Below, one piece after another: positions 3,163-24,737 of a DNA stretch of 27,066 nucleotides (position 1 is the stretch's first letter; every line of letters starts with the position of its first letter). Made by a program: the position numbers and the translations under genes. The notes beneath the pieces were generated by a model, which was given only the letters and a program-made list of their open reading frames with translations, was not told where the DNA came from and ran no database searches. The stretch is taken from positions 1 through 27,066 of the IMG/VR virus record IMGVR_UViG_3300031539_000262. One strand, 5' to 3'. The DNA is from a virus.

Positions 3163-3540
3163 TTATGCCGAAGAGCTGCTTGACGATTCGCTGCTGCTCG
3201 AACTGCTGGAGGATTCGCTGCTTGACGACTCGCTGCTGGACGACTCGCTGCTGGACGATTCACTGCTGGACGATTCGCTGCTGGACGATTCGCTGCTGGA
3301 TGATGAGCTGCTCGAAGATGAGCTCGAGCTGGATATCCCGATCAAATAATTATGAAGGTCCGAAAGCTGGGTATTGATCATTATATCGATCCTGTCCTCT
3401 TCGGTCTGCTCACCGACGGCGACCGCCGAATCCCCGCCGAGAGCCGAATTGTAATAATCCCGATACTCTAAATCGGCAGTGGTATCATCTCCATCGTAGA
3501 TGTCCTCATTGTATTCGATTAGCGTCAGTCGATAGCCCAC
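3163..3540 (-). CDS. Short fibre-associated protein ending in a 56-residue Ser/Glu tail
   Basis: The protein has 125 residues. Residues 1-69 form an acidic domain (LTLIEYNEDIYDGDD, DLEYRDYYNSALGG) matching the N-terminus of the following 497-residue protein, so the two genes are tandem paralogues. Residues 70-125 are almost only serine with single Glu residues in SSSSE units. The neighbour has the same head domain, a short Ser stretch and then a large C-terminal module; this gene looks like the version without a module. The only in-frame start is GTG 3540, itself part of an AAAGTG word array, with no Shine-Dalgarno. I do not recognise the head domain. Position after the I/J fusion suggests a structural tail-tip component. 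Confidence 0.65.
   Translation of the reverse strand: MGYRLTLIEYNEDIYDGDDTTADLEYRDYYNSALGGDSAVAVGEQTEEDRIDIMINTQLSDLHNYLIGISSSSSSSSSSSSSSESSSSESSSSESSSSESSSSESSSSESSSSSSSSESSSSSSA
3166..3333 (-). repeat. 15-bp tandem repeat encoding SSESS
   Basis: The serine tail is made of a 15-bp unit (AGCAGCGAATCGTCC on the coding strand) repeated about six times with few changes, plus 12-bp relatives. Codons of both serine families (AGC and TCN) alternate, so it is not a single-codon run. Confidence 0.85.
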
Positions 3541-6812: not shown

Positions 6813-7283
6813 TTATGCTCCCGCACTGGATGAACTGCTCGATGAGCTGGACGATTCGGACGAGGACGATTCGGACGAGGACGATGAAGATGAGCTCGAT
6901 GACATACTGGATGAACTCGATGAGCCTGTCGTACCGAACATCTCGATATTTGCGAAATACTTATCGATACAACGTGGCTCTAAGCCGAACCGGATCGGCC
7001 TGTTGAGTCTCATTACCCACATCGTATCCGTTAATATATTGGTCCAGTTAAATGTTACCGCTCCCACCTTGATCAGGGCCTGAAAATTTTCCAAAAGGAC
7101 CTTGTCCGCCGCCGAAATATGATGATAGGTCACCGAATACAAGTCGGGTATCGTCCCGCTGAATCTCGGCCTGGTGCTTATAGCGCCTGATGCGAAATCG
7201 GCCCTTATAGTCGGATCCATTAGTTTTGTTTCGGTAAATCCCCTGTGAGATACCGCACGTGTTAATGTTGGAAACGATGCCAT
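6813..7283 (-). CDS. Minor tail protein M-like with C-terminal Ser/Glu tail
   Basis: The protein has 156 residues. Residues 1-120 match the size and place of lambda gpM (about 109 residues), directly after the tape measure and before L; the pattern of SFPTL ... PRFSG ... FNWTNI ... VMRLNRPIRF is typical of small distal-tail proteins. Residues 121-156 are a tail of serines with two Glu and one Met, ending SAGA. Such a tail is absent from lambda gpM. The start shares one base with the tape-measure stop (TAATG), so translation is coupled. The Ser tail probably projects from the tail tip, where it would be on the outside. Confidence 0.8.
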   Translation of the reverse strand: MASFPTLTRAVSHRGFTETKLMDPTIRADFASGAISTRPRFSGTIPDLYSVTYHHISAADKVLLENFQALIKVGAVTFNWTNILTDTMWVMRLNRPIRFGLEPRCIDKYFANIEMFGTTGSSSSSSMSSSSSSSSSSESSSSESSSSSSSSSSAGA

Positions 7284-9592: not shown

Positions 9593-9613
9593 TGATTATA
9601 CCTATGGCATAAA

Positions 9614-9692
9614 TTTTCTATCATGTACCACGTGGGGTACATGACCGTGAACCCAACGCGGTTCATGGTTGACTATTGTTTTTTTATCTGCG
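9614..9692. repeat. 79-bp double-hairpin repeat, copy A
   Basis: Near-identical to 18397-18475 with three differences by my reading. It holds two hairpins in a row: ATGTACC/GGTACAT and CCGTGAACC/GGTTCATGG. On the coding strand its edge includes the last codons and TAA of the T frame. Confidence 0.85.
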
Positions 9693-10330
9693 GTCAAACA
9701 TTTCTTCGATATCTTCATCCGCCTGCTCTTCGGCCGGCTCGAAATCGAATTCCTTTAAGATGCCCTTGATCTTGCCGCCCCGCATCGCCTGGATTATTTT
9801 CGCCGCCCGGTAGTCGGCCCTCTTCTGGCCCCAGGGATCGATCTGCTCGAGCAGCTCTAACTGCTTTTCTTCGAAGGCGCTGAGCCGCTGTTTTACTTCG
9901 GCTACTGACCAGCCCCTGGCTTCTGCGATCCGGAACCGGAGTCGCTCTCTTCGGCCCCGCTCTCCGGAGAGTCCGAGTTTTTTACCAGCTCCTCGATTTC
10001 GCCTGTCGCCATGCCGGAAAGCTTGCGGGCGATATCGAGGATCGGATCAGAGACCTTCGCCGGCACCATACAGAGCCGGCCGATGTCCTTCTCGCCGAAC
10101 AGCCGCTTGCCATGCTGATCGTGGATGGTTAGCTGCATCAGTACCGCCCGGGCGTTCGTCAATTTGACCTGCCTGGTCCCGGCCTTTACCGAAACGACGT
10201 TATTCTCGTACTCATCTTTCTGACCGGAAGTCAGGCCGTAGATCCAGATATCGCCTAACTGAGGGACCGTCTTTCTCTCGCGCGGGACCGGGCACTTGAA
10301 GAACCCTTCCTTTGTCGCCCAAGTTTCCAT
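9684..10330 (-). CDS. Tail assembly chaperone GT-like, made by -1 frameshift
   Basis: The G frame (10330 to 9902) continues in the -1 frame from base 9977 to the TAA at 9684-9686, adding 97 residues for a product of about 215. The T part (WSVAEVKQRLSAFEEKQLELLEQIDPWGQKRADYRAAKI...) has no usable start of its own, stays open through the overlap and has a helical, acidic-ended composition like lambda gpT. The slip site is A AAA AAC read as GTA AAA AAC, with a CTCTCCGGAGAG stem-loop five bases beyond. As in lambda, G and GT should bind the tape measure and recruit tail-tube subunits in a fixed ratio. Position between tube and tape measure agrees. Confidence 0.85.
9902..10330 (-). CDS. Tail assembly chaperone G-like (unshifted product)
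   Basis: This is the 142-residue product made when no frameshift occurs. It begins METWATKEGFFKCPVP after a strong Shine-Dalgarno (AAAGGAG, eight bases before ATG). The beta-rich first half and the helical segment at 94-118 (DPILDIARKLSGMATGEIEELV) fit lambda gpG and related chaperones. Residues after 118 are acidic, Ser/Gly/Pro-rich low complexity and probably unimportant for fold, since the frame is left at this point in the longer product. It lies just after the tail tube gene and two GC-rich hairpins. Confidence 0.8.
   Translation of the reverse strand: METWATKEGFFKCPVPRERKTVPQLGDIWIYGLTSGQKDEYENNVVSVKAGTRQVKLTNARAVLMQLTIHDQHGKRLFGEKDIGRLCMVPAKVSDPILDIARKLSGMATGEIEELVKNSDSPESGAEESDSGSGSQKPGAGQ
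9960..9983 (-). promoter_or_regulatory. Programmed -1 ribosomal frameshift site
   Basis: Coding-strand heptamer A AAA AAC (9983-9977) lies in the right phase of the G frame (GTA AAA AAC, residues 116-118). After a five-base spacer comes CTCTCCGGAGAG (9971-9960), which can fold into a short GC-containing stem-loop. Slip site, spacer and structure are the standard parts of a bacterial -1 frameshift signal. Confidence 0.85.
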
Positions 10331-10431: not shown

Positions 10432-10866
10432 CTATGAGCTCGAGGAGCTGCTGCTCGATGAGCTGCTTGATGAGCTGCTCGATGAGCTGCTGTTGAAGCC
10501 CGGCATACCGCTGCATCGGATCTCGATCGGGTGCGTGGCCGCCGTGCGCAAAGGCATCTCAAGCGATGCCGACCTGATATGTCCGCTCACATTCAGTACC
10601 TTGGTGTCTTTGACAAGCTTCCACGTCTGATTTGCGCCTGCGAAGGCGTCGAGGATCGTTTCGAACAGGGTCGGCTGAAACAGCAGGGTCGCAGTAATCA
10701 CGCCGGGGTCCTTGAACCCGCCTTCGTACTCGTTCCACTGACCGGGCGAGTCGGCGTTAGTGACATCGATCTCGTCTTCGGTCAGTCCGTTCCATGTAAA
10801 ATTCGTCAGCTCACCTATTACACCGCTCACCGAGCCGGTCAATACCCATCCGTATAAAGTAGCCAT
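10432..10866 (-). CDS. Major tail tube protein, V-like, with C-terminal poly-Ser
   Basis: I choose ATG 10866 (144 residues, MATLYGWVLTGSVSG...) because CGGAGA lies 8 bases before it; the longer open frame upstream only translates a CCGCGTAATC repeat word. Residues 1-125 are beta-rich with the pattern of small tail tube proteins (DEIDVTNADSPGQW, EYEGGFKDPGVITATLLFQP, SASLEMPLRTAATHPIEI). The last 19 residues are all serine. Lambda gpV carries an Ig-like domain on the outside of the tube at the same end; here the serine tail takes that place. Position between U-like and G-like genes agrees with lambda order. Each tube has many copies, so the tail surface would be studded with serine. Confidence 0.85.
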   Translation of the reverse strand: MATLYGWVLTGSVSGVIGELTNFTWNGLTEDEIDVTNADSPGQWNEYEGGFKDPGVITATLLFQPTLFETILDAFAGANQTWKLVKDTKVLNVSGHIRSASLEMPLRTAATHPIEIRCSGMPGFNSSSSSSSSSSSSSSSSSSS

Positions 10867-10897
10867 TTTTTTTCTCCGATCATATTTGCTAATTTTG

Positions 10898-10926
10898 AAT
10901 CCGCGTAATCTGCGCAATCCGCGGTT
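10898..10926 (-). repeat. CCGCGTAATC word array
   Basis: Words AATCCGCGTAATCTGCGCAA and TCCGCGG stand between the U-like stop and the tail tube Shine-Dalgarno. Same vocabulary as 11992-12027. Translated by chance, it would add MRRLRGF to the tail tube. Confidence 0.7.
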
Positions 10927-10932
10927 AAATTC

Positions 10933-11952: not shown

Positions 11953-12027
11953 GTACATTTATTATTTACTATTTATTATTTACTATTTTTTTAATCCGCG
12001 TAATCCGCGTAATCCGCGTAATCCGCG
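11953..12027 (-). repeat. Composite word array: ATTATTTACT words then four TAATCCGCG copies
   Basis: Bases 11953-11991 repeat TTATTATTTACTATT-like words; 11992-12027 is four perfect head-to-tail copies of the nine-base TAATCCGCG. Together they make up the whole leader of the Z-like gene. Confidence 0.9.
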
Positions 12028-13394: not shown

Positions 13395-13913
13395 CTACGA
13401 GCTGCTCGATGAGCTGCTGGACGATTCGCTGCTGGACGAACTGCTGGACGATTCGCTGCTGCTCGATGAACTGCTGCTCGATGAGCTGCTCGATGATTCG
13501 CTGCTGGATGAGCTGCTCGATGAGCTGCTGGACGATGAGCTGCTCGATGAGCTCGACTGCTGGTATCCGGGATGCGGAAGGACCTCGATGACACTGCCGT
13601 CCCCGGATGCGGCGTCTAAGGCCGTGCCGATCACTTTGGTCCCCGTCGCCGCGATCTTGCCGCTTGCCGCCGCGTAAACCCTGCGGCCGGCTATGATCGC
13701 CCCGGATGCCGTCATTTTGGAAGAGCCGCCGTGCCTGTCCAGGCGGACGGCGACGGATTCGCCATCGTCCGAGTCCTTCTGCGTCACGCCGATCCCGTAA
13801 TCGACGGCGTCGGCCAGCATTACCGTGCCATCGTTCGAAATTACGACTCGCAGGAATGCATCCATGTCCTCGCCCGCCTCGAATGTTTTTGGGCTGTTTG
13901 ACTGTATTGTCAT
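13395..13913 (-). CDS. Capsid decoration protein, DUF2190-like, copy 2, with 53-residue Ser/Glu tail
   Basis: The 172-residue protein is a tandem duplicate of the next upstream gene; residues 1-119 differ at only about a dozen places. The body (KTFEAGEDMDAFLRVVISNDG, ADYGIGVTQKDSDDGE, IIAGRRVYAAASGKI, GTALDAASGDGSVIEVL) has the DUF2190 / gpD-like pattern of small trimeric capsid-stabilising proteins. Residues 120-172 are serine with three Glu. A good Shine-Dalgarno (AGGAGA) lies five bases before ATG 13913. The tail follows the last body strand and would point outward. Sequence decay between copies is slight, which suggests a recent duplication, while the tail lengths differ greatly (53 against 11). 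Confidence 0.8.
   Translation of the reverse strand: MTIQSNSPKTFEAGEDMDAFLRVVISNDGTVMLADAVDYGIGVTQKDSDDGESVAVRLDRHGGSSKMTASGAIIAGRRVYAAASGKIAATGTKVIGTALDAASGDGSVIEVLPHPGYQQSSSSSSSSSSSSSSSSSSSESSSSSSSSSSSSSSESSSSSSSSESSSSSSSSS
13398..13556 (-). repeat. 12/15-bp tandem repeats encoding the decoration-protein Ser tail
   Basis: Coding-strand units AGCAGCTCATCG (SSSS) and AGCAGCGAATCGTCC (SSESS) alternate through 159 bp. Both serine codon families are mixed. It is not a CRISPR array: there are no spacers, and it is in frame. Confidence 0.85.
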
Positions 13914-13952: not shown

Positions 13953-14345
13953 CTAAGTGCTCGATGAACTCGAGCTCGAGCTGCTCGATTGCTGGCAGCT
14001 TACGTGCGGAAGGACCTCGATGACACTGCCGTCCCCGGTTGCGGCGTCTAAGGCCGTGCCGATCACTTTGGTCCCCGTCGCCGCGATCTTGCCGCTTGCC
14101 GCCGCGTAAACCCTGCGGCCGGCTATGATCGTCCCGGATGCCGTCATTTTGGAAGAGCCGCCGTGGCTGTCCAGCCGGATTGCGACGGATTCACCATCGT
14201 CCGAGTCCTTCTGCGTCACGCCGATCCCGTAATCGGCGGCGTCGGCCAGCATGACCGTGCCATCGTTCGAAATTACGACTCGCAGGAATGCATCCATGTC
14301 CTCGCCGGCTTCGAATGTTTTCGGACTGTCACTTTGAGTTGTCAT
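13953..14345 (-). CDS. Capsid decoration protein, DUF2190-like, copy 1, short Ser tail
   Basis: This 130-residue protein shares its first 119 residues almost fully with the downstream copy, with D/N, A/V and S/R differences. It ends VSCQQ plus ten serines and one threonine. Its place directly after the protease/scaffold gene and before the capsid gene is that of lambda gpD. A strong Shine-Dalgarno (AGGAGA) is present. The extra Cys116 is not in copy 2. With two versions that differ mainly in tail length, the virion could carry a mixed coat. The DUF2190 assignment is by pattern only. Confidence 0.8.
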   Translation of the reverse strand: MTTQSDSPKTFEAGEDMDAFLRVVISNDGTVMLADAADYGIGVTQKDSDDGESVAIRLDSHGGSSKMTASGTIIAGRRVYAAASGKIAATGTKVIGTALDAATGDGSVIEVLPHVSCQQSSSSSSSSSST

Positions 14346-18370: not shown

Positions 18371-18396
18371 TTTGAATCCTTTCTTTACATTGATTA

Positions 18397-18475
18397 TTTT
18401 CTATCATGTACCACATGGGGTACATGACCGTGAACCCAACGCGGTTCACGGTTGACTATTGTTTTTTCATCTGCG
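18397..18475. repeat. 79-bp double-hairpin repeat, copy B
   Basis: Second copy of the element at 9614-9692. The two hairpins are ATGTACC/GGTACAT and CCGTGAACC/GGTTCACGG, the latter perfect here. It lies between the TerL stop and the zinc-ribbon gene. Confidence 0.85.
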
Positions 18476-18496
18476 TTCATCTGCGTTCATCTGCGG
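18467..18496 (-). repeat. Three TTCATCTGCG copies
   Basis: Three perfect head-to-tail copies of a ten-base word overlap the end of repeat copy B and end exactly at the TerL stop codon. Confidence 0.85.
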
Positions 18497-20407
18497 TTAA
18501 TACTTCGTCCGAATCGGACGCGGCTTGACCGGCCGGCCGATCGGTATTACCTCCTGTTTCGGCTTCGAAGGATCGCCCAATGTCCACATGCCGGCGATAT
18601 CCGCAGCCGCGCGGGCGTAGTCATCGCAGTCCCAGTAGTGATTCAGCCGACAGGGCGTTTTGACGACCCAGCCGATCCACTTGATGCGGTCGCCGTGACG
18701 CTCGATGATCTTCTTTTCCGAAGTCAAATGCTCCAGGACAATGTACTCGGTGTCACTGTGAAGGTGCCCGTACCCGGCGCCCGGAACGGTCGCCTCGAAA
18801 TAAGCCCGGTGCAGGGCATCCTTGTACGCGGTGACATTCAGCCGGTAGAGCTTCAGTCGGCCCCCGGCCGTCTTTCCCACCGCCCAGGACTGCTTGGAAA
18901 GCTTGTCATCGCCGGCCACCGGGATAATCGGCGCGACCCCCGCGCAGCGGACGCAGAAGGCATCGACGGCATCGGCGTTGTACTGCCTGTCGATCGCCGA
19001 TAAGACTATCCGCTTGACCTTATCGGGATCCTCCATCAGCTCGAACCGCATCGCCAGGTACGGAATCAATTTTTCCAGATTCTCGACCCGCTCGGTCGGA
19101 CCCGTCTCTATCCTGGCCTCGAAGATCGACCAGAACTCGCCTAAATAGCCCCAGCCTAAGACCCGCAGATATACGTGATCTAACTGCACATCGAGACCCG
19201 CCGTCAGCATCTGGCAGCCGACAGGGACTTTTCCCTTCGGGTACCGGCCTATATGCTTTCTCAGGACCTCGATATCGGTAGTCGCCCGCTCCTCCTTCCA
19301 CGGCCGGGCGAGCTGTGAGTTCCAGAAGTCCTTCAAGAGCTGGATATTGCCGGCCTCCTTGGCCCGCTGGGCCCGAACGAACTCGACTGCCAGGCTGCTT
19401 ACCGTCTCGACCATCGGGTGCAGCATAACCGCGTGGATCCGGCAGCTCCGGTAGCTGGTCGGCTTTACCTTTCCGACCAAATGACCGGCATCATCCAGGC
19501 TGCAATCGCCCGGTACGAACTTGCCGCCGCTGACCGCCTGCCAGCGGTCCTCTTCCGACCATGCGGACCCGCACTTCGGGCATACGTACCGGGCCCGCCC
19601 GCCCCGGGCGTAAGCGCTCTCGGCGTACCACTGCTTATCGGCCTTCCGGTCGATTTTGACGTTCTCCCATTCGATCTGGTGCCATTTCCGGCAGTGCGGG
19701 CAACAGACCCACCACTGGCAGCAGTCGCCCCGAGACCACTCCTGATCGCTCATATCATCGGCCGTCACCGGTGTCGTCATGCCCAATAGTTTCGATCGGC
19801 CCTTGAACCACCGCTGCCTTTTGCGCATAAGCGATATCGGGTCGGCCTCAGCGCCCACGAACGGTGGATATTTGCCCGTCTCATCGGCGATGATATAACA
19901 GCACGGCTTATCCGCTAAGGCCTGCGGCGTAGTCGGCCAGCCGATGTACTGGATCATATTGTCGAATACCGTCTGCTTGCCGATATAGATATTCCGCACC
20001 CGGCCGCCCACATGGCGAAGCAGGTCCTCGTTGGCGGCGAACATCGGCCGGATCCTCGCCTCGACGCGGTTCTTTACATCATCCTTCGACGGCATGATCA
20101 AAAGCGTCGGGCCCGGGCAGCACTCGACTATATAACCGTTCGCCCCGGTCCCGAAAGTCGTCTTGCCCGACTGCGCGCAGGCGTAAATCCAGATCTCCCG
20201 CGTAGTCGTATCGCTGAACCACTCGGCTATCGGCAGAAAATAAGGTGTATATTCCCTCGACCACGGACCCTCGATCGCCGATGTCCCGCCGACCAGCATG
20301 TAATTACTCTCCATCCATTCGGTCAACGCCGGCCGGGCGCGGGGCCGCAATACATCGCGCTCTTCCGCCTGGATTGCCAATACTCGTATTTCGTTAATCG
20401 CTACCAT
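18497..20407 (-). CDS. Terminase large subunit, lambda gpA family
   Basis: The protein has 636 residues (lambda gpA 641). Walker A-like ACAQSGKT is at 76-83 and Walker B YIIADET at 171-177, giving the packaging ATPase. A CCPHC ... CPKC zinc pair follows in the middle, as in GpA proteins. AGLDVQLDHVYLRVLGWG and LSAIDRQYNADAVDAF fit the C-terminal nuclease that cuts concatemers. Residues 12-50 (AEERDVLRPRARPALTEW ... GGTSAIEGPWS) are repeated in a fragment 1 kb upstream (21263-21454), so this 5' end may be a replacement. No Shine-Dalgarno is seen; the leader is an ATTGATTATTG word array. Confidence 0.95.
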   Translation of the reverse strand: MVAINEIRVLAIQAEERDVLRPRARPALTEWMESNYMLVGGTSAIEGPWSREYTPYFLPIAEWFSDTTTREIWIYACAQSGKTTFGTGANGYIVECCPGPTLLIMPSKDDVKNRVEARIRPMFAANEDLLRHVGGRVRNIYIGKQTVFDNMIQYIGWPTTPQALADKPCCYIIADETGKYPPFVGAEADPISLMRKRQRWFKGRSKLLGMTTPVTADDMSDQEWSRGDCCQWWVCCPHCRKWHQIEWENVKIDRKADKQWYAESAYARGGRARYVCPKCGSAWSEEDRWQAVSGGKFVPGDCSLDDAGHLVGKVKPTSYRSCRIHAVMLHPMVETVSSLAVEFVRAQRAKEAGNIQLLKDFWNSQLARPWKEERATTDIEVLRKHIGRYPKGKVPVGCQMLTAGLDVQLDHVYLRVLGWGYLGEFWSIFEARIETGPTERVENLEKLIPYLAMRFELMEDPDKVKRIVLSAIDRQYNADAVDAFCVRCAGVAPIIPVAGDDKLSKQSWAVGKTAGGRLKLYRLNVTAYKDALHRAYFEATVPGAGYGHLHSDTEYIVLEHLTSEKKIIERHGDRIKWIGWVVKTPCRLNHYWDCDDYARAAADIAGMWTLGDPSKPKQEVIPIGRPVKPRPIRTKY

Positions 20408-20445
20408 CTTGTAATTGATTAATGATTATTGATTATTGCTTCTTT
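20408..20445 (-). repeat. ATTGATTATTGATTATT word array
   Basis: Spacer of short AT-rich words between the second zinc-protein stop and TerL. It marks the left edge of the suspected cassette; a related AT-rich array (21238-21281) marks the right edge. Confidence 0.65.
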
Positions 20446-20700
20446 TTATGCAGCTCCGTCAAAATCAATTTCTTCTCTTTTGTCCCCACGATGAATCCTC
20501 CACGTTTGCCGCCATCCTTTACGTAAAAGATGACCAAATAATTCTTCTGTACATTTTTCGCAAAACCAGTAAATCACGCCACGATTACCCTCGGTATCTA
20601 TTGCAGTCAAAATTTCTCCCTCATCAAACTTTCTGTCGCATTCGACGCACGGTTTCCATTCCCTTCCGGTTGCTATAATTCTCCTATGAATCTTCATCAT
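20446..20700 (-). CDS. Small zinc-binding protein in terL cassette
   Basis: The protein has 84 residues (MMKIHRRIIATGREWKPCVEC...). Cys18/Cys21 and Cys47/Cys50 form a CxxC-x25-CxxC zinc ribbon. The rest is charged and basic (RKGWRQTWRIHRGDKREEIDFDG). Its start lies 17 bp inside the upstream gene, in a GATGATGAAG context, so translation is coupled. I do not recognise the family. With the next gene it forms the two-gene insert between a TerL N-terminal fragment and complete TerL; a nucleic-acid-binding role is the simplest idea. No nuclease motif is visible to me. Confidence 0.7.
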   Translation of the reverse strand: MMKIHRRIIATGREWKPCVECDRKFDEGEILTAIDTEGNRGVIYWFCEKCTEELFGHLLRKGWRQTWRIHRGDKREEIDFDGAA

Positions 20701-21220
20701 CGAATCCTTTTCTCAAAAATGGTACTACTTCTTCTAAAAACATTTTTTCAGCATCTTCTAATTTTTGCTGCTGGCTCCGAGGGTCCTCGATCTGTTGCCT
20801 CAGAAAATGTTCTCTTCTCGCTTCTTCTTCTGGCTCTCTGGCAAGGTCCTCATCATTCATCGGATTCATCGAGCTTCTCTTGACTTTGTTTGGAAAAGGC
20901 AAATCCCATTTGTCGATAATTAGCCGCCAGTTAATCTCACTTGATTTGGCATCCGAAAATCCGCTTCTCAATATGACGGCGAACTGCTGCTGTAAATGTG
21001 GTAAAAGCAAACATTCGGGATTTCTCATTCCTGCCAATAGCATATTGACCGGATAAGTATTTCTGAGAAAATCATGGACAGCGCAGTTTATGCACAGCCC
21101 CTTCGGCACTTTGCTCCGCTTGAGTATTTTAGCTCGCGAACCGTGCAGGGGATCGACCTTGCACTTTGCCCCGCATCGCTCGCAATTACATCCCGTTTGG
21201 CTGCCGAACAATGTATCCAT
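20684..21220 (-). CDS. Cysteine-rich protein in terL cassette
   Basis: ATG 21220 gives 178 residues (MDTLFGSQTGCNCERCGAKC...). A GTG six codons earlier would translate the ribosome binding site itself (AAAGGCGGCGA), so I reject it. Cys11, 13, 16 and 20 together with Cys43 and Cys46 (GLCINCAVHDF) form one or two zinc sites. The middle is hydrophobic-helical (NMLLAGMRNPECLLLPHLQQQFAVIL) and the C-terminus is a charged coiled part (EEEARREHFLRQQIEDPRSQQQ). I do not recognise a homing endonuclease or other known family. It is the first gene of the suspected cassette. Confidence 0.75.
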   Translation of the reverse strand: MDTLFGSQTGCNCERCGAKCKVDPLHGSRAKILKRSKVPKGLCINCAVHDFLRNTYPVNMLLAGMRNPECLLLPHLQQQFAVILRSGFSDAKSSEINWRLIIDKWDLPFPNKVKRSSMNPMNDEDLAREPEEEARREHFLRQQIEDPRSQQQKLEDAEKMFLEEVVPFLRKGFDDEDS

Positions 21221-21237
21221 AATGTCGCCGCCTTTCA

Positions 21238-21281
21238 CTTTACATTGATTATTTTCTATTTATTATTTACTATTTTTTCGG
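21238..21281 (-). repeat. AT-rich word array at the truncation point
   Basis: It starts with a 22-base segment identical to 18383-18404 and goes on as TATTTATTATTTACTATT words. The TerL-like similarity of the upstream fragment ends exactly where this array begins. Confidence 0.75.
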
Positions 21282-21454
21282 TTCCAGTAACCCTCGATAG
21301 CCGCCGTCCCCCCGGCCAGCATATAATTATTGCTCAGCCAGTCGATCAAAGCCGGCCGGGCGCGGGGACGGAGAATGTCGCGCTCTTCCGCCTGCAGCGG
21401 AAGCACGCGAAATTGACTATTTTCGATTTGCGATTGTCGATTTTCTGCGATCAT
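21263..21454 (-). pseudogene. Truncated duplicate of the TerL N-terminus
   Basis: This 63-codon frame has residues 19-59 (LPLQAEERDILRPRARPAL ... NYMLAGGTAAIEGYWNR) matching TerL residues 10-51 at about 30 of 41 positions; the DNA is roughly three-quarters identical. It then stops within an AT-rich word. The start overlaps the stop of the upstream small gene by ATGA, exactly as expected for the original terL start, while complete TerL downstream has no such coupling. The first 15 codons (MIAENRQSQIEN) translate a CGATTGTCGATTTT word. Most likely it is the remaining 5' end of an older terL allele; a functional short peptide is possible but unlikely. Confidence 0.85.
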
Positions 21455-21639
21455 GGATTTTTTATACTCGCCTTAACTAATTCCAGTGCCTGCTCGGGCG
21501 TAAATTCGACCTTGATATAAGCGTCATAGAGCGCCTTGTGCCATTTGGCGATTTCATTGTGCAATCCACCGACTATCATATTTCTTGATTGCTCCTGAAG
21601 CTTTCTCAATTTAACAGCTTCGTTTTCATTTCCTGCCAT
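21451..21639 (-). CDS. Small helical protein before terL
   Basis: ATG 21639 gives 62 residues (MAGNENEAVKLRKLQEQSRN...), following AAAAGCGGTGACATT, a variant of the repeated ribosome binding motif. The upstream in-frame ATG would translate this site. The protein is predicted as helix-helix with an alanine-rich centre (HNEIAKWHKALYDAYIKVEF) and TPEQALELVKASI at the end, a pattern often seen in small phage proteins of unknown function. It lies between TerS and the TerL fragment, to which it is coupled through ATGA. No function can be named. Confidence 0.7.
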   Translation of the reverse strand: MAGNENEAVKLRKLQEQSRNMIVGGLHNEIAKWHKALYDAYIKVEFTPEQALELVKASIKNP

Positions 21640-21672
21640 AATGTCACCGCTTTTCAAATCGTAAATCATAAT

Positions 21673-22632
21673 TCATAAATTGCTGCCCAGCAGCTCAAAG
21701 CATTCACCCAGCTTTTCCAACGCCGCCTCCGGCAGCTCCAGGAACTCCGGGACCTCGAGCTGCTGCCGCTGCAGGTCCTCGAAGAACCGGCCTAAGATAT
21801 CCTCGATATTCTCGATCGTCTGGTTATGGACCATATTGGCCAGTTCACGCCTCTTGTAATTGAACGCCCCGACCATGAGCTGGCACCTGGCGACCAGGCC
21901 GGCGATGACCTCCTCGCGATCGAGCAGCTTATGCCGGCGCTGGGCCAAGTCCAGCCTCTTCTCCTCGGCCTTCAGATCGCGGAGAGTATCGGCCGGCAGC
22001 ATCCTTCCCGTCGATTTGCTCTTAACGAATTCACCGTACCACTTAATGACCTCGTACAGATTGTAGCTGCCGTCCGCATTACGCGGGCATTTGTGCTTGT
22101 TCGTCCAGTCGTTTACCGTTATCCTCGTGACGTCGAATAAATCCGCGATCTCCTTCTGTATCAGCCTGGTCAGATCGGACCCGGCGGGCCTGGTCTTTTC
22201 TTCATCTTTGAGATAGTTCTCGACTACCGTAATCGCCCGCTGATTGCCCTCTTCGGCCGCCGCCAGTAAGGCCTCGCGAACCCGAACACGGGTATCCAGC
22301 CTGGTCTGATACCAGATGTCCGCGGCCTCCGGGTCCGTATCGAGAATGTCCCGAAGCTCCTGGCCGGAAGATAATTTCAGGGCCGCTGCGGCCTCCGAGA
22401 CCGTATCGACCACACCGGCCTTGGCCTTGAGATTACGCAAAAACCGGCCCCGCTCGAACGAAGCCGACAGCTTGTCATCCCTCTTTAGAAACTCGGCCAG
22501 AGGCCTGGCCAACGCCGCCGCCAGATCGGCCTCGGCAAGATCCTCGCACTCAAAACCCAGACGACGAACGGAGGTCTGCGAAATAAAGTATTTCGATTTA
22601 CGATTGTCGATTTTCGATTGACGATTTCTCAT
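21673..22632 (-). CDS. Terminase small subunit, Nu1-like, with an added N-terminal module
   Basis: The 319-residue frame has two DNA-binding-like parts. Residues about 75-142 (VSEAAAALKLSSGQELRDIL ... REALLAAAEEGNQRAITVVENYL) resemble helix-turn-helix TerS domains. Residues about 157-205 (LIQKEIADLFDVTRITVNDW ... DGSYNLYEVIKWYGEFV) match the winged-helix of lambda Nu1, followed by the ADTLRDLKAEEKRLDLAQRR helix. Lambda Nu1 has 181 residues, so the N-terminal half is extra. The first 16 residues (MRNRQSKIDNRKSKYF) translate an intergenic word, so the true start may be further in; I keep the long one with low certainty. It should recognise the cos/pac site and recruit TerL. Confidence 0.8.
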   Translation of the reverse strand: MRNRQSKIDNRKSKYFISQTSVRRLGFECEDLAEADLAAALARPLAEFLKRDDKLSASFERGRFLRNLKAKAGVVDTVSEAAAALKLSSGQELRDILDTDPEAADIWYQTRLDTRVRVREALLAAAEEGNQRAITVVENYLKDEEKTRPAGSDLTRLIQKEIADLFDVTRITVNDWTNKHKCPRNADGSYNLYEVIKWYGEFVKSKSTGRMLPADTLRDLKAEEKRLDLAQRRHKLLDREEVIAGLVARCQLMVGAFNYKRRELANMVHNQTIENIEDILGRFFEDLQRQQLEVPEFLELPEAALEKLGECFELLGSNL

Positions 22633-22713
22633 TTTCTTTTGACAGGATTACAGGATTTACCTGTTTTATCCCGTTATCCCGTCCGAAACCTTCTGACTCC
22701 TGATTTCTGTTTT
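22587..22713 (-). repeat. Composite word array (CGATTGTCGATTT, ACAGGATTACAGGATTT and CTGATTTCTGTTTTCT)
   Basis: Three different word families stand in a row in the gap between the ParB-like stop and the TerS body: CGATTTTCGATTGACGATTT (22587-22626), GACAGGATTACAGGATTTAC (22639-22658) and CCTGATTTCTGTTTTCT near 22695. The first is inside the TerS reading frame as given here. Confidence 0.75.
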
Positions 22714-24480
22714 CTATTTTTTAACCGCCATGACCTCGCAACTCGAGCAAAGATCATCCTCTACCCAGTGACATGGTTCGCCGGTTTTTTTGTCAATACA
22801 GGGGTTCGTGTCCGTGCACCCGCATATTCGGCAGCTTTGAACATCATCTTTTTTGCCGGCCTTTTTGGTCTTTGCCCTCTTGGCCCTTTCTTTCTTCTCT
22901 GATTTATTTTTCTTTATAGGTTTTGCTTTCTTTGGAGTGCCATCTTCTTTGAGCCCCGCCCATGACTTAGGCACGGCGAAGCCTTTCCGGCTCGAAACCT
23001 CCTTGAGCATAGCCTTGACATCGATGCATATAAGCTTGGCAATCCATTCAGCCCTTATGATATATTCCTTCGATGTCTGCGTGATCGGCCCGTTGTATGT
23101 CAGCAGATCGTCCAGCGTCGGCCCGAACGTCTCCCATAGCGTCTCGAGGACCTTTTTCCTGCCGGCCTTAATAAGCTCTTCGGCGGATTTATATTTAACG
23201 TCGGCCCTGGCGTGGTATGAAATCTTATTGCCGTACAAAGCCACCAGTGCCATCAGGCCGGTCGCCTTATCGTCGAAACAGATCTCAGTCACCTTCGTCG
23301 CCGCGACCTTCTCACGCAAATCGATAAGCAACTGGGCCCAGCGCTTCGCATCGAGCATCGCCCGTCGCTGTTTGAGCGGCGTCGGCACACCTTTAGCCTT
23401 ACCCGCCCGGCCGGATCCGGTGTCGCTCAGCTTGATATACGTCAGCTTGCCGGCGCCTTTGCCGTTAATATACATCGCCGGTAAAGCTCCCTTGGCCGAC
23501 TTCGGGCATGTCTTGTAATCCCACTTTGAAATATACCCGCCGAGATTCTCACTGATCTGCCTCGCCTCGTTACTGTTCGGATGATCGCTTGCGGCATATA
23601 CCAGCTCCGGATGCTTGGCCCGCAGCCCAGCCGCCGTCCGCTGCAGCAGGGCCATTTCCTTCGCCTGATAACAGTGGCCGTCCAGGCACTGGTCCCCGGC
23701 TTCGACCTGCTCATCCGAATCGAACCACAACAAAGGCTGATGGCCCGAGCGCTTCTCGCATTTCGAGCATGCCCCGGCCTTCGGCAGCAGCGTTTCGTCG
23801 GCTAATTCCCACTTGGCCCCACTGAGCAGCTTCAATTCCTTGCCGATATATTCTTTCAGGTCGGCTGCCGAACATTCCTCCGGCTCAAAATAGTAATCGG
23901 TCGCATCGACCAGCAGTTGTTTCTGCCGGGCCGCCGGCAGCCGGGCGATCAGTGTAAGATGCTTAACGGACCACGATCTGAATGATGGGTGTTTATCGAG
24001 ATTCTCGAAGATCGATTTCCATTCCTTGATAAGCTTGGCGTTGATATTCGCCCGCAGCCGGACCCACCGCTCTTTTTTGCCGATCCTGCCGGCTATCGCC
24101 CTGACATCACCGCCGAACCGCTCGATCAATAGCGCTACCTCCGCCGCCTCCTCCATCGGCTTGAGGTCCTTGCGGAACTTGTTCTCGATGTAAGTCAGGT
24201 CCATCGCCTCGGCATCGGACAGCCCGGTATATATGATCGCGGTTATAATTTCGGCGCCCGCCGCCTTGGCCGCCCGGTACCGCCGCTCGCCGGCCCGCAG
24301 CTCGTACTTGCCTTTCTTGTCCGGATGCGGCCAGACCTGGACCGGCTGGCGGACCCCGCCGCCCTTGATACTGGCGATGAGCTCGTCAAAGCCCTCGGAT
24401 TTCTCGATGTTCTTGCGCTGGTTGTCACTGGTCGGAAAAATGTCGCCGACCGCGATCTGCTGTAATTGTGGCGTGTTCAT
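22714..24480 (-). CDS. ParB/Spo0J-like protein with zinc motifs
   Basis: The protein has 588 residues, about twice the usual ParB length. The N-terminal ParB domain has GVRQPVQVWP (42-51), GERRYRA (64-70, the CTP-binding box) and ENKFRKDLKPMEEA (99-112), followed by a helix-turn-helix (AIAGRIGKKERWVRLR). The middle holds a CSKC ... CLDGHC cysteine set and the end a Lys-rich linker and CRICGC ... CSSC zinc motif (from about 550). These extra zinc parts are common in phage ParB-like proteins. No ParA is in the window, so plasmid-type partition is not shown; regulation or DNA modification is possible. AAAGGAG precedes ATG 24480. Confidence 0.85.
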   Translation of the reverse strand: MNTPQLQQIAVGDIFPTSDNQRKNIEKSEGFDELIASIKGGGVRQPVQVWPHPDKKGKYELRAGERRYRAAKAAGAEIITAIIYTGLSDAEAMDLTYIENKFRKDLKPMEEAAEVALLIERFGGDVRAIAGRIGKKERWVRLRANINAKLIKEWKSIFENLDKHPSFRSWSVKHLTLIARLPAARQKQLLVDATDYYFEPEECSAADLKEYIGKELKLLSGAKWELADETLLPKAGACSKCEKRSGHQPLLWFDSDEQVEAGDQCLDGHCYQAKEMALLQRTAAGLRAKHPELVYAASDHPNSNEARQISENLGGYISKWDYKTCPKSAKGALPAMYINGKGAGKLTYIKLSDTGSGRAGKAKGVPTPLKQRRAMLDAKRWAQLLIDLREKVAATKVTEICFDDKATGLMALVALYGNKISYHARADVKYKSAEELIKAGRKKVLETLWETFGPTLDDLLTYNGPITQTSKEYIIRAEWIAKLICIDVKAMLKEVSSRKGFAVPKSWAGLKEDGTPKKAKPIKKNKSEKKERAKRAKTKKAGKKDDVQSCRICGCTDTNPCIDKKTGEPCHWVEDDLCSSCEVMAVKK

Positions 24481-24515: not shown

Positions 24516-24737
24516 TTAATTTCCGACAGGATTACAGGATATTCCTTTATTCCAGTCCGGGTCCTGATCGTAATAATCCAAATCGTCAAACGGATCCTCT
24601 TCGTAATTGTCATCGATGTGGTAATCATCGTAATCTTTATCAGTATAAATTTCGCAAGCGTGTTCGCAATCCTCGTCGAGCAGCTCGATGTCCGCCGAGC
24701 AATCGCATTCTTCTCCGCAGTCAGGGCAAAAGTGCAT
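24516..24737 (-). CDS. Small acidic cysteine-rich protein
   Basis: The protein has 73 residues. Cys4, Cys7, Cys11 and Cys13 (CPDCGEECDC), with Cys24 and Cys28, suggest a zinc site; the rest is very acidic and tyrosine-rich (YTDKDYDDYHIDDNYEEDPFD in overlapping parts). The AAAGGCGGTGA motif stands three bases before ATG 24737. I do not recognise a family. The strongly negative surface could mimic DNA, as in some phage anti-restriction proteins, but nothing beyond charge supports that. Confidence 0.7.
   Translation of the reverse strand: MHFCPDCGEECDCSADIELLDEDCEHACEIYTDKDYDDYHIDDNYEEDPFDDLDYYDQDPDWNKGISCNPVGN

Follow-up and report, generated by a model that had tools for sequence, protein, structure and literature searches.

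The complete large terminase gene (terL) of a viral contig is preceded by a second, truncated terL 5′ end, and this locus is probably the scar left where two related phages recombined illegitimately at an AT-rich array with a 7-bp period. Our best reading is that the locus, known from one contig, is a case of ordinary phage mosaicism. The sequence analyzed is a 27,066-base metagenome assembly contig of a virus (IMG/VR record IMGVR_UViG_3300031539_000262, positions 1 to 27,066), the whole of which is referred to here as the window.

A truncated terL 5′ end upstream of the complete gene

The genes concerned all lie on the minus strand and run from parB through terS, the small gene, the terL stub, c184 and c84 to terL; the features of the region are as follows.

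22714-24480, minus strand: parB
22590-22628, minus strand: 7-bp-period AT array of AATCGxA words, spanning the terS start
21673-22632, minus strand: terS, small terminase with an HTH
21656-21680, minus strand: short 7-bp array and SD-like leader GAAAAGCGGTGACATTATG, at the boundary of terS and the small gene
21451-21669 or 21451-21639 (62 aa), minus strand: small gene
21263-21454, minus strand: terL 5′ stub, 63 codons
21248-21278, minus strand: array at the stub end
20684-21220, minus strand: c184, 178 aa from the ATG at 21220, with an N-terminal zinc-binding CxxC/CxxC
20446-20700, minus strand: c84, a small zinc-binding protein
20409-20447, minus strand: 7-bp-period AT array directly 5′ of the intact terL start
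18497-20407, minus strand: complete GpA-type terL, with ATPase and nuclease domains
11992-12027, 10898-10929, 22641-22667 and 24525-24551, at gene boundaries: TAATCCGCG- or ACAGGATT-type repeats

The terL gene at 18497-20407 is a GpA-type large terminase that passes the curated cut-offs of PF05876 and PF20454 (166 bits against 25.6 and 145 bits against 22.5, respectively). The preliminary description had read the frame at 21263-21454 as a repeat of the terL 5′ end and as coupled to the upstream small gene through ATGA; both points were borne out. The stub aligns to TerL residues 5-52 with 31 of 42 core residues identical, the DNA repeat shared by the stub and the terL start covers 105 nt at 81% (20267-20371 against 21290-21394), and an ATGA overlap joins the stub to the small gene (21451-21669). 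In a tblastn search of the window with the stub, the terL start was matched at E=3e-20, and the likeness is therefore not due to chance. The reading frame of the stub runs across all 63 codons with no stop and no frameshift and ends ahead of the Walker A region. Array words (NRQSQIEN) make up its N-terminal residues, which is also true of the TerL of other members; its last codons (YWNRK) are unlike those of the orthologs, and its homology to terL stops at TGGAACCGA, the left edge of an array unit.

The TerL has relatives at 59-82% identity in about 30 viral contigs and in one contig of a Phycisphaerae metagenome-assembled genome (MAG; 76% identity); the TerLs of INPHARED phages are distant, all under 60% identity. 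The MAG contig suggests Phycisphaerae (Planctomycetota) as the host group, which is no proof for this particular phage. Among the roughly 31 loci, no second terL 5′ copy was found beyond the window, the stub matching the terL start alone in the available flanks. Within the core, the stub is 74% identical in amino acids and 75% in nucleotides to the TerL of the window and 69-81% identical in amino acids to those of the three closest relatives, L006, L007 and L009, of which L007 gives the 81%; ortholog pairs among these four phages share 71-79% of amino acids and 71-75% of nucleotides. The dN/dS values of the stub against orthologs were 0.09-0.29, within the range of the ortholog pairs. Against the terL of the window, dN/dS was 0.29 and dS 0.69, the lowest dS among the stub's pairs, and the nucleotide identity of this pair (75%) ranked second. 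Because dN/dS is ortholog-like, most of the stub's divergence probably arose under constraint, inside a full terL. Judged by these values, the stub shows no relaxed constraint and is as distant from the window TerL as orthologs are from one another, and in the simplest account it looks like the terL 5′ end of another lineage, captured recently. The 42-codon core yields a tree with 18 of its 25 inner branches open, in which the stub cannot be placed.

It had also been noted that the complete terL starts uncoupled, which is correct but normal for the group: in the window an AT array is followed by ATGGTAGC, with an uncoupled start, and the terL genes of L006, L007, L009 and L062 likewise follow an array with an uncoupled ATGGT(A/C)GC start. 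The core of the window terL diverges from the L006, L007 and L009 cores as much as these diverge from one another. In every pair compared, conservation is lower in the core than in the terL body, and the core of the window is, relative to the body, no more diverged than in other ortholog pairs. Given that both the core divergence and the upstream flank are typical of the group, the intact terL shows no sign of a repair 5′ end, and the proposal that terL carries an imported replacement 5′ end was rejected. Sliding identity along terL revealed no breakpoint that stood out as a second crossover, in a comparison of low power; the three profiles run in parallel, a pattern expected from conservation. 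A plain two-parent join could not be told apart from one to which another, homologous crossover farther along terL had later been added.

The terS-terL interval and the c184-c84 gene pair

The distance from terS to terL in the relatives ranges from 10 bp (L008, L022) to 2948 bp (L018), and the interval genes of the four closest phages (the window, L006, L007 and L009) are unrelated, with no BLASTP hit among them. The variable length and the unrelated genes together identify the terS-terL interval as a cassette site. Two marks of mosaicism are present here: close relatives carry unrelated genes where the flanks are conserved, and short sequence is shared at the seam, in the form of arrays that bound the cassette on either side and recur in the equivalent places of L006, L007, L009 and L062. 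Side observations in other contigs include a gene that is TnpB-like by eye between terS and terL (L018:2109-3578) and terL genes split into two matches by a frameshift or missing stretch, real or from assembly (L038:4466-6354 and L042:1366-3103).

The terS of the window is 47-66% identical to the terS of relatives, L039 (37%) being the exception, and the first bases past terS match L009. The longer version of the small gene, starting at 21669, consists at its start of translated array words; an inner ATG lies at 21639, preceded by an SD-like leader of the same kind as that before the c184 ATG. The small gene matches phrog_26408 weakly and, used as query, found no relatives among the viral contigs.

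Translation of c184 probably starts at the ATG at 21220 and not at the listed GTG (21238), as the SD-like stretch GAAAGGCGGCGACATT precedes this ATG; a leader of this kind, with the look of a ribosome-binding site, is also found before the cassette genes of L009 and L007. The two genes downstream of the stub had been called zinc-binding, in agreement with the two CxxC pairs found in each of c184 and c84, which are invariant among relatives. There are 27 relatives of c184 in viral contigs and none in INPHARED phages, and matches occur in 5 of 298 genomes of the class of the Phycisphaerae MAG, where c184 and terL share one contig. In 9 of the 27 other contigs c84 follows c184 (8 distinct sequences with near-identical contigs merged). 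When c84 itself was used as the viral-contig query no relatives were returned; its relatives emerged beside c184. The relatives of c184 lie in an accessory region, often close to parB and terS, with orders such as parB followed by c184 and c84 (L065), c184, parB and terS (L086 and L043), c184 followed by terS (L019), and c184, c84 and parB (L076).

The preliminary description had proposed that these two genes form a mobile cassette, perhaps of a new element type, that had split terL. Sequence up- and downstream of c184(-c84) was compared at the 23 loci with enough flank, the window excluded, and none of them (0/23) had duplicated or split flanks, with related sequence on either side, as the window does; c184-c84 therefore does not behave like a gene-splitting or gene-duplicating element. 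The absence of a nuclease motif, also claimed earlier, was confirmed by both sequence and fold, neither of which matched c184 or c84 to a nuclease, recombinase or transposase. Comparison of c184 with Pfam, PHROG and PDB sequences gave nothing above noise, and its predicted structure (pLDDT 72) has no fold match in the PDB; the c84 model (pLDDT 64) shows a weak likeness to the PARP-1 Zn1 zinc finger at E 0.016, a low-confidence match on which we do not rely. From its distribution, c184-c84 is an ordinary accessory phage gene pair.

Some relatives have further neighbors of note. In L085 (3995-5038) a c184-like N-terminal domain is apparently fused, by eye, to a DNA methyltransferase-like part, from which the c184 domain may bind DNA. 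Genes 3′ of c184(-c84) resemble HNH-type homing endonucleases by eye in L010 (5828-6715) and L012 (5716-6537), and that at L011:6454-7062 resembles an AP2-domain protein.

AT arrays at gene edges

As the preliminary description had stated, AT-rich arrays lie at both edges of the cassette, and both have a 7-bp period (21248-21278 and 20409-20447). A detector of AT-rich stretches with 7-bp periodicity, run on the window and on local shuffles, found eight arrays in the window against 0.02 in the shuffles. All eight touch a gene edge, whereas positions no more than 30 bp from an edge make up 12.5% of the genome. Simple multiplication of the chances gives about 6e-8, a value that ignores a possible array intolerance of coding sequence, and such intolerance alone may explain the edge location. 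Four of the eight arrays fall within 20409-22628 and a fifth is at 22690-22723. The array at the stub end (21248-21278) has a 95% copy over 38 nt at 11954-11991, free-standing and upstream of another gene, and the homology of the stub stops where the array unit with this free-standing copy starts, which supports the idea of the array as a seam. In many relatives the TerL N-terminus is translated through array words (NRQSQIEN, NRKSSIVN). Separate boundary repeat families, made of TAATCCGCG and ACAGGATT units, are distinct from the 7-bp arrays.

The arrays resemble the heptamer satellites and short tandem repeats of prokaryote genomes (PMC6749651) in that 7-bp tandem units are dispersed between genes; unlike those, their units vary from copy to copy and sit at gene starts in phage genomes. 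Both array types have matching families in the genome of the Phycisphaerae MAG, at 22 and 14 places with at most two mismatches, the reversed control giving 1 and 0. A search of the literature on 7-bp arrays in planctomycete phages returned nothing.

Origin of the locus

In the mosaic reading, one parent would have supplied terS (or the region just past it), the small gene and about 57 first terL codons, and the other the array, c184, c84, a second array and the complete terL. The two would have been joined end to end, illegitimately or guided by microhomology, in or beside the 7-bp-repeat AT array at a gene boundary, after which the complete terL would be kept by selection. The stub would be a relic with no required function, although its translation by coupling perhaps persists. 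Since the order terS, small gene, terL of the presumed parent, which the preliminary description had proposed to look for, was found in no phage, the small gene having no detectable relative, and the junction string is absent from all other viral contigs, we infer the parents; known parental arrangements are evidence for mosaicism and not its condition.

The geometry of stub, cassette and complete gene, with arrays at both cassette edges, would also fit a c184-c84 mobile element that entered terL after about 45-57 codons and brought a gene-restoring 5′ end with it. Some homing endonucleases and intron-like elements in or beside terL leave split or duplicated gene parts. Unlike these, c184 and c84 have no counterpart among nuclease families or folds, and at the loci compared their relatives are not found in split genes, for which reasons a mobile element with a hidden nuclease was rejected; the pair occurs elsewhere with no stub, and the terL 5′ end is not foreign to its body and has a normal upstream flank for the group. 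We consider an origin of this kind very improbable. An old tandem duplication within the lineage, with the cassette between the copies and the upstream copy drifting, would agree with the dS and nucleotide identity of the stub-terL pair, the lowest and second highest among the stub's pairs. Against it stand the dN/dS of this pair (0.29), which is far from a free-drift value, the 63 codons free of stops and frameshifts, and a stub protein that resembles L007 (81%) more than the TerL of its own genome (74%). Given the lack of resolution in the core tree, these points make an old duplication unlikely and no more.

An assembly chimera, in which strain variants that differ in their terS-terL cassette were misjoined at a low-complexity array, is improbable. 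In its favor, the junction is known from one contig, the arrays are short, repeated and AT-rich, and the contig has the 38-nt copy at 95% in another place. However, the stub ends inside terL at a point where the orthologs have no array, so reads must span a junction that neither parent has, and the exactly shared repeats would be shorter than usual assembly k-mers. Finally, the stub might be a working, coupled, free-standing TerL N-terminal domain that binds TerS and tunes or blocks packaging, for example against a co-infecting relative. The N-terminus of lambda gpA contacts the small subunit gpNu1, which makes such a role conceivable, and the intact frame, the translational coupling, the protein-level constraint no weaker than that of orthologs and the end before the Walker A region would all suit it. 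However, the stub is absent from all the other roughly 31 loci, its final codons differ from those of the orthologs, and a young relic would give the same picture. Nothing in the sequence comparisons favors a functional stub over a young relic, and we give the idea little credence.

The mosaic reading places the locus within a well-described process. In phage mosaicism, as in mycobacteriophages, short boundary sequences and illegitimate exchange have both been discussed (PMC3029335). The window shares with that system unrelated genes swapped between conserved neighbors, junctions near gene boundaries and short conserved sequences at the seams; it differs in that the seams are host-type 7-bp-period AT arrays, with no single fixed boundary sequence, and in that a partial duplicate of an essential gene remains (PMC3029335). 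The small extra genes between terS and terL are also reminiscent of morons, single-gene cassettes between conserved phage genes, as several interval genes have their own leader and are unrelated among close relatives. The locus offers a clear snapshot of how the shuffling of phage modules can scar an essential gene, and as a single relic it alters nothing known about terminases. The arrays may act as guides of exchange, and in phages whose hosts are uncultured Planctomycetota, host-type 7-bp arrays at gene edges may serve as seams where cassettes are exchanged; should they truly guide exchange, this phage group would be a good setting for studying homology-light recombination.

Other repeats were seen in the window. 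Five structural-region proteins have serine-rich tails with SSSSES words (13395-13913, 13953-14345, 3163-3540, 6813-7283 and 10432-10917), and two of them, those of 13395-13913 and 13953-14345, are encoded by near-duplicate genes (93% over 300 nt). In addition, an 84-nt repeat with an inverted-repeat core occurs at 95% identity in two intergenic sites, 9613-9696 and 18396-18479.
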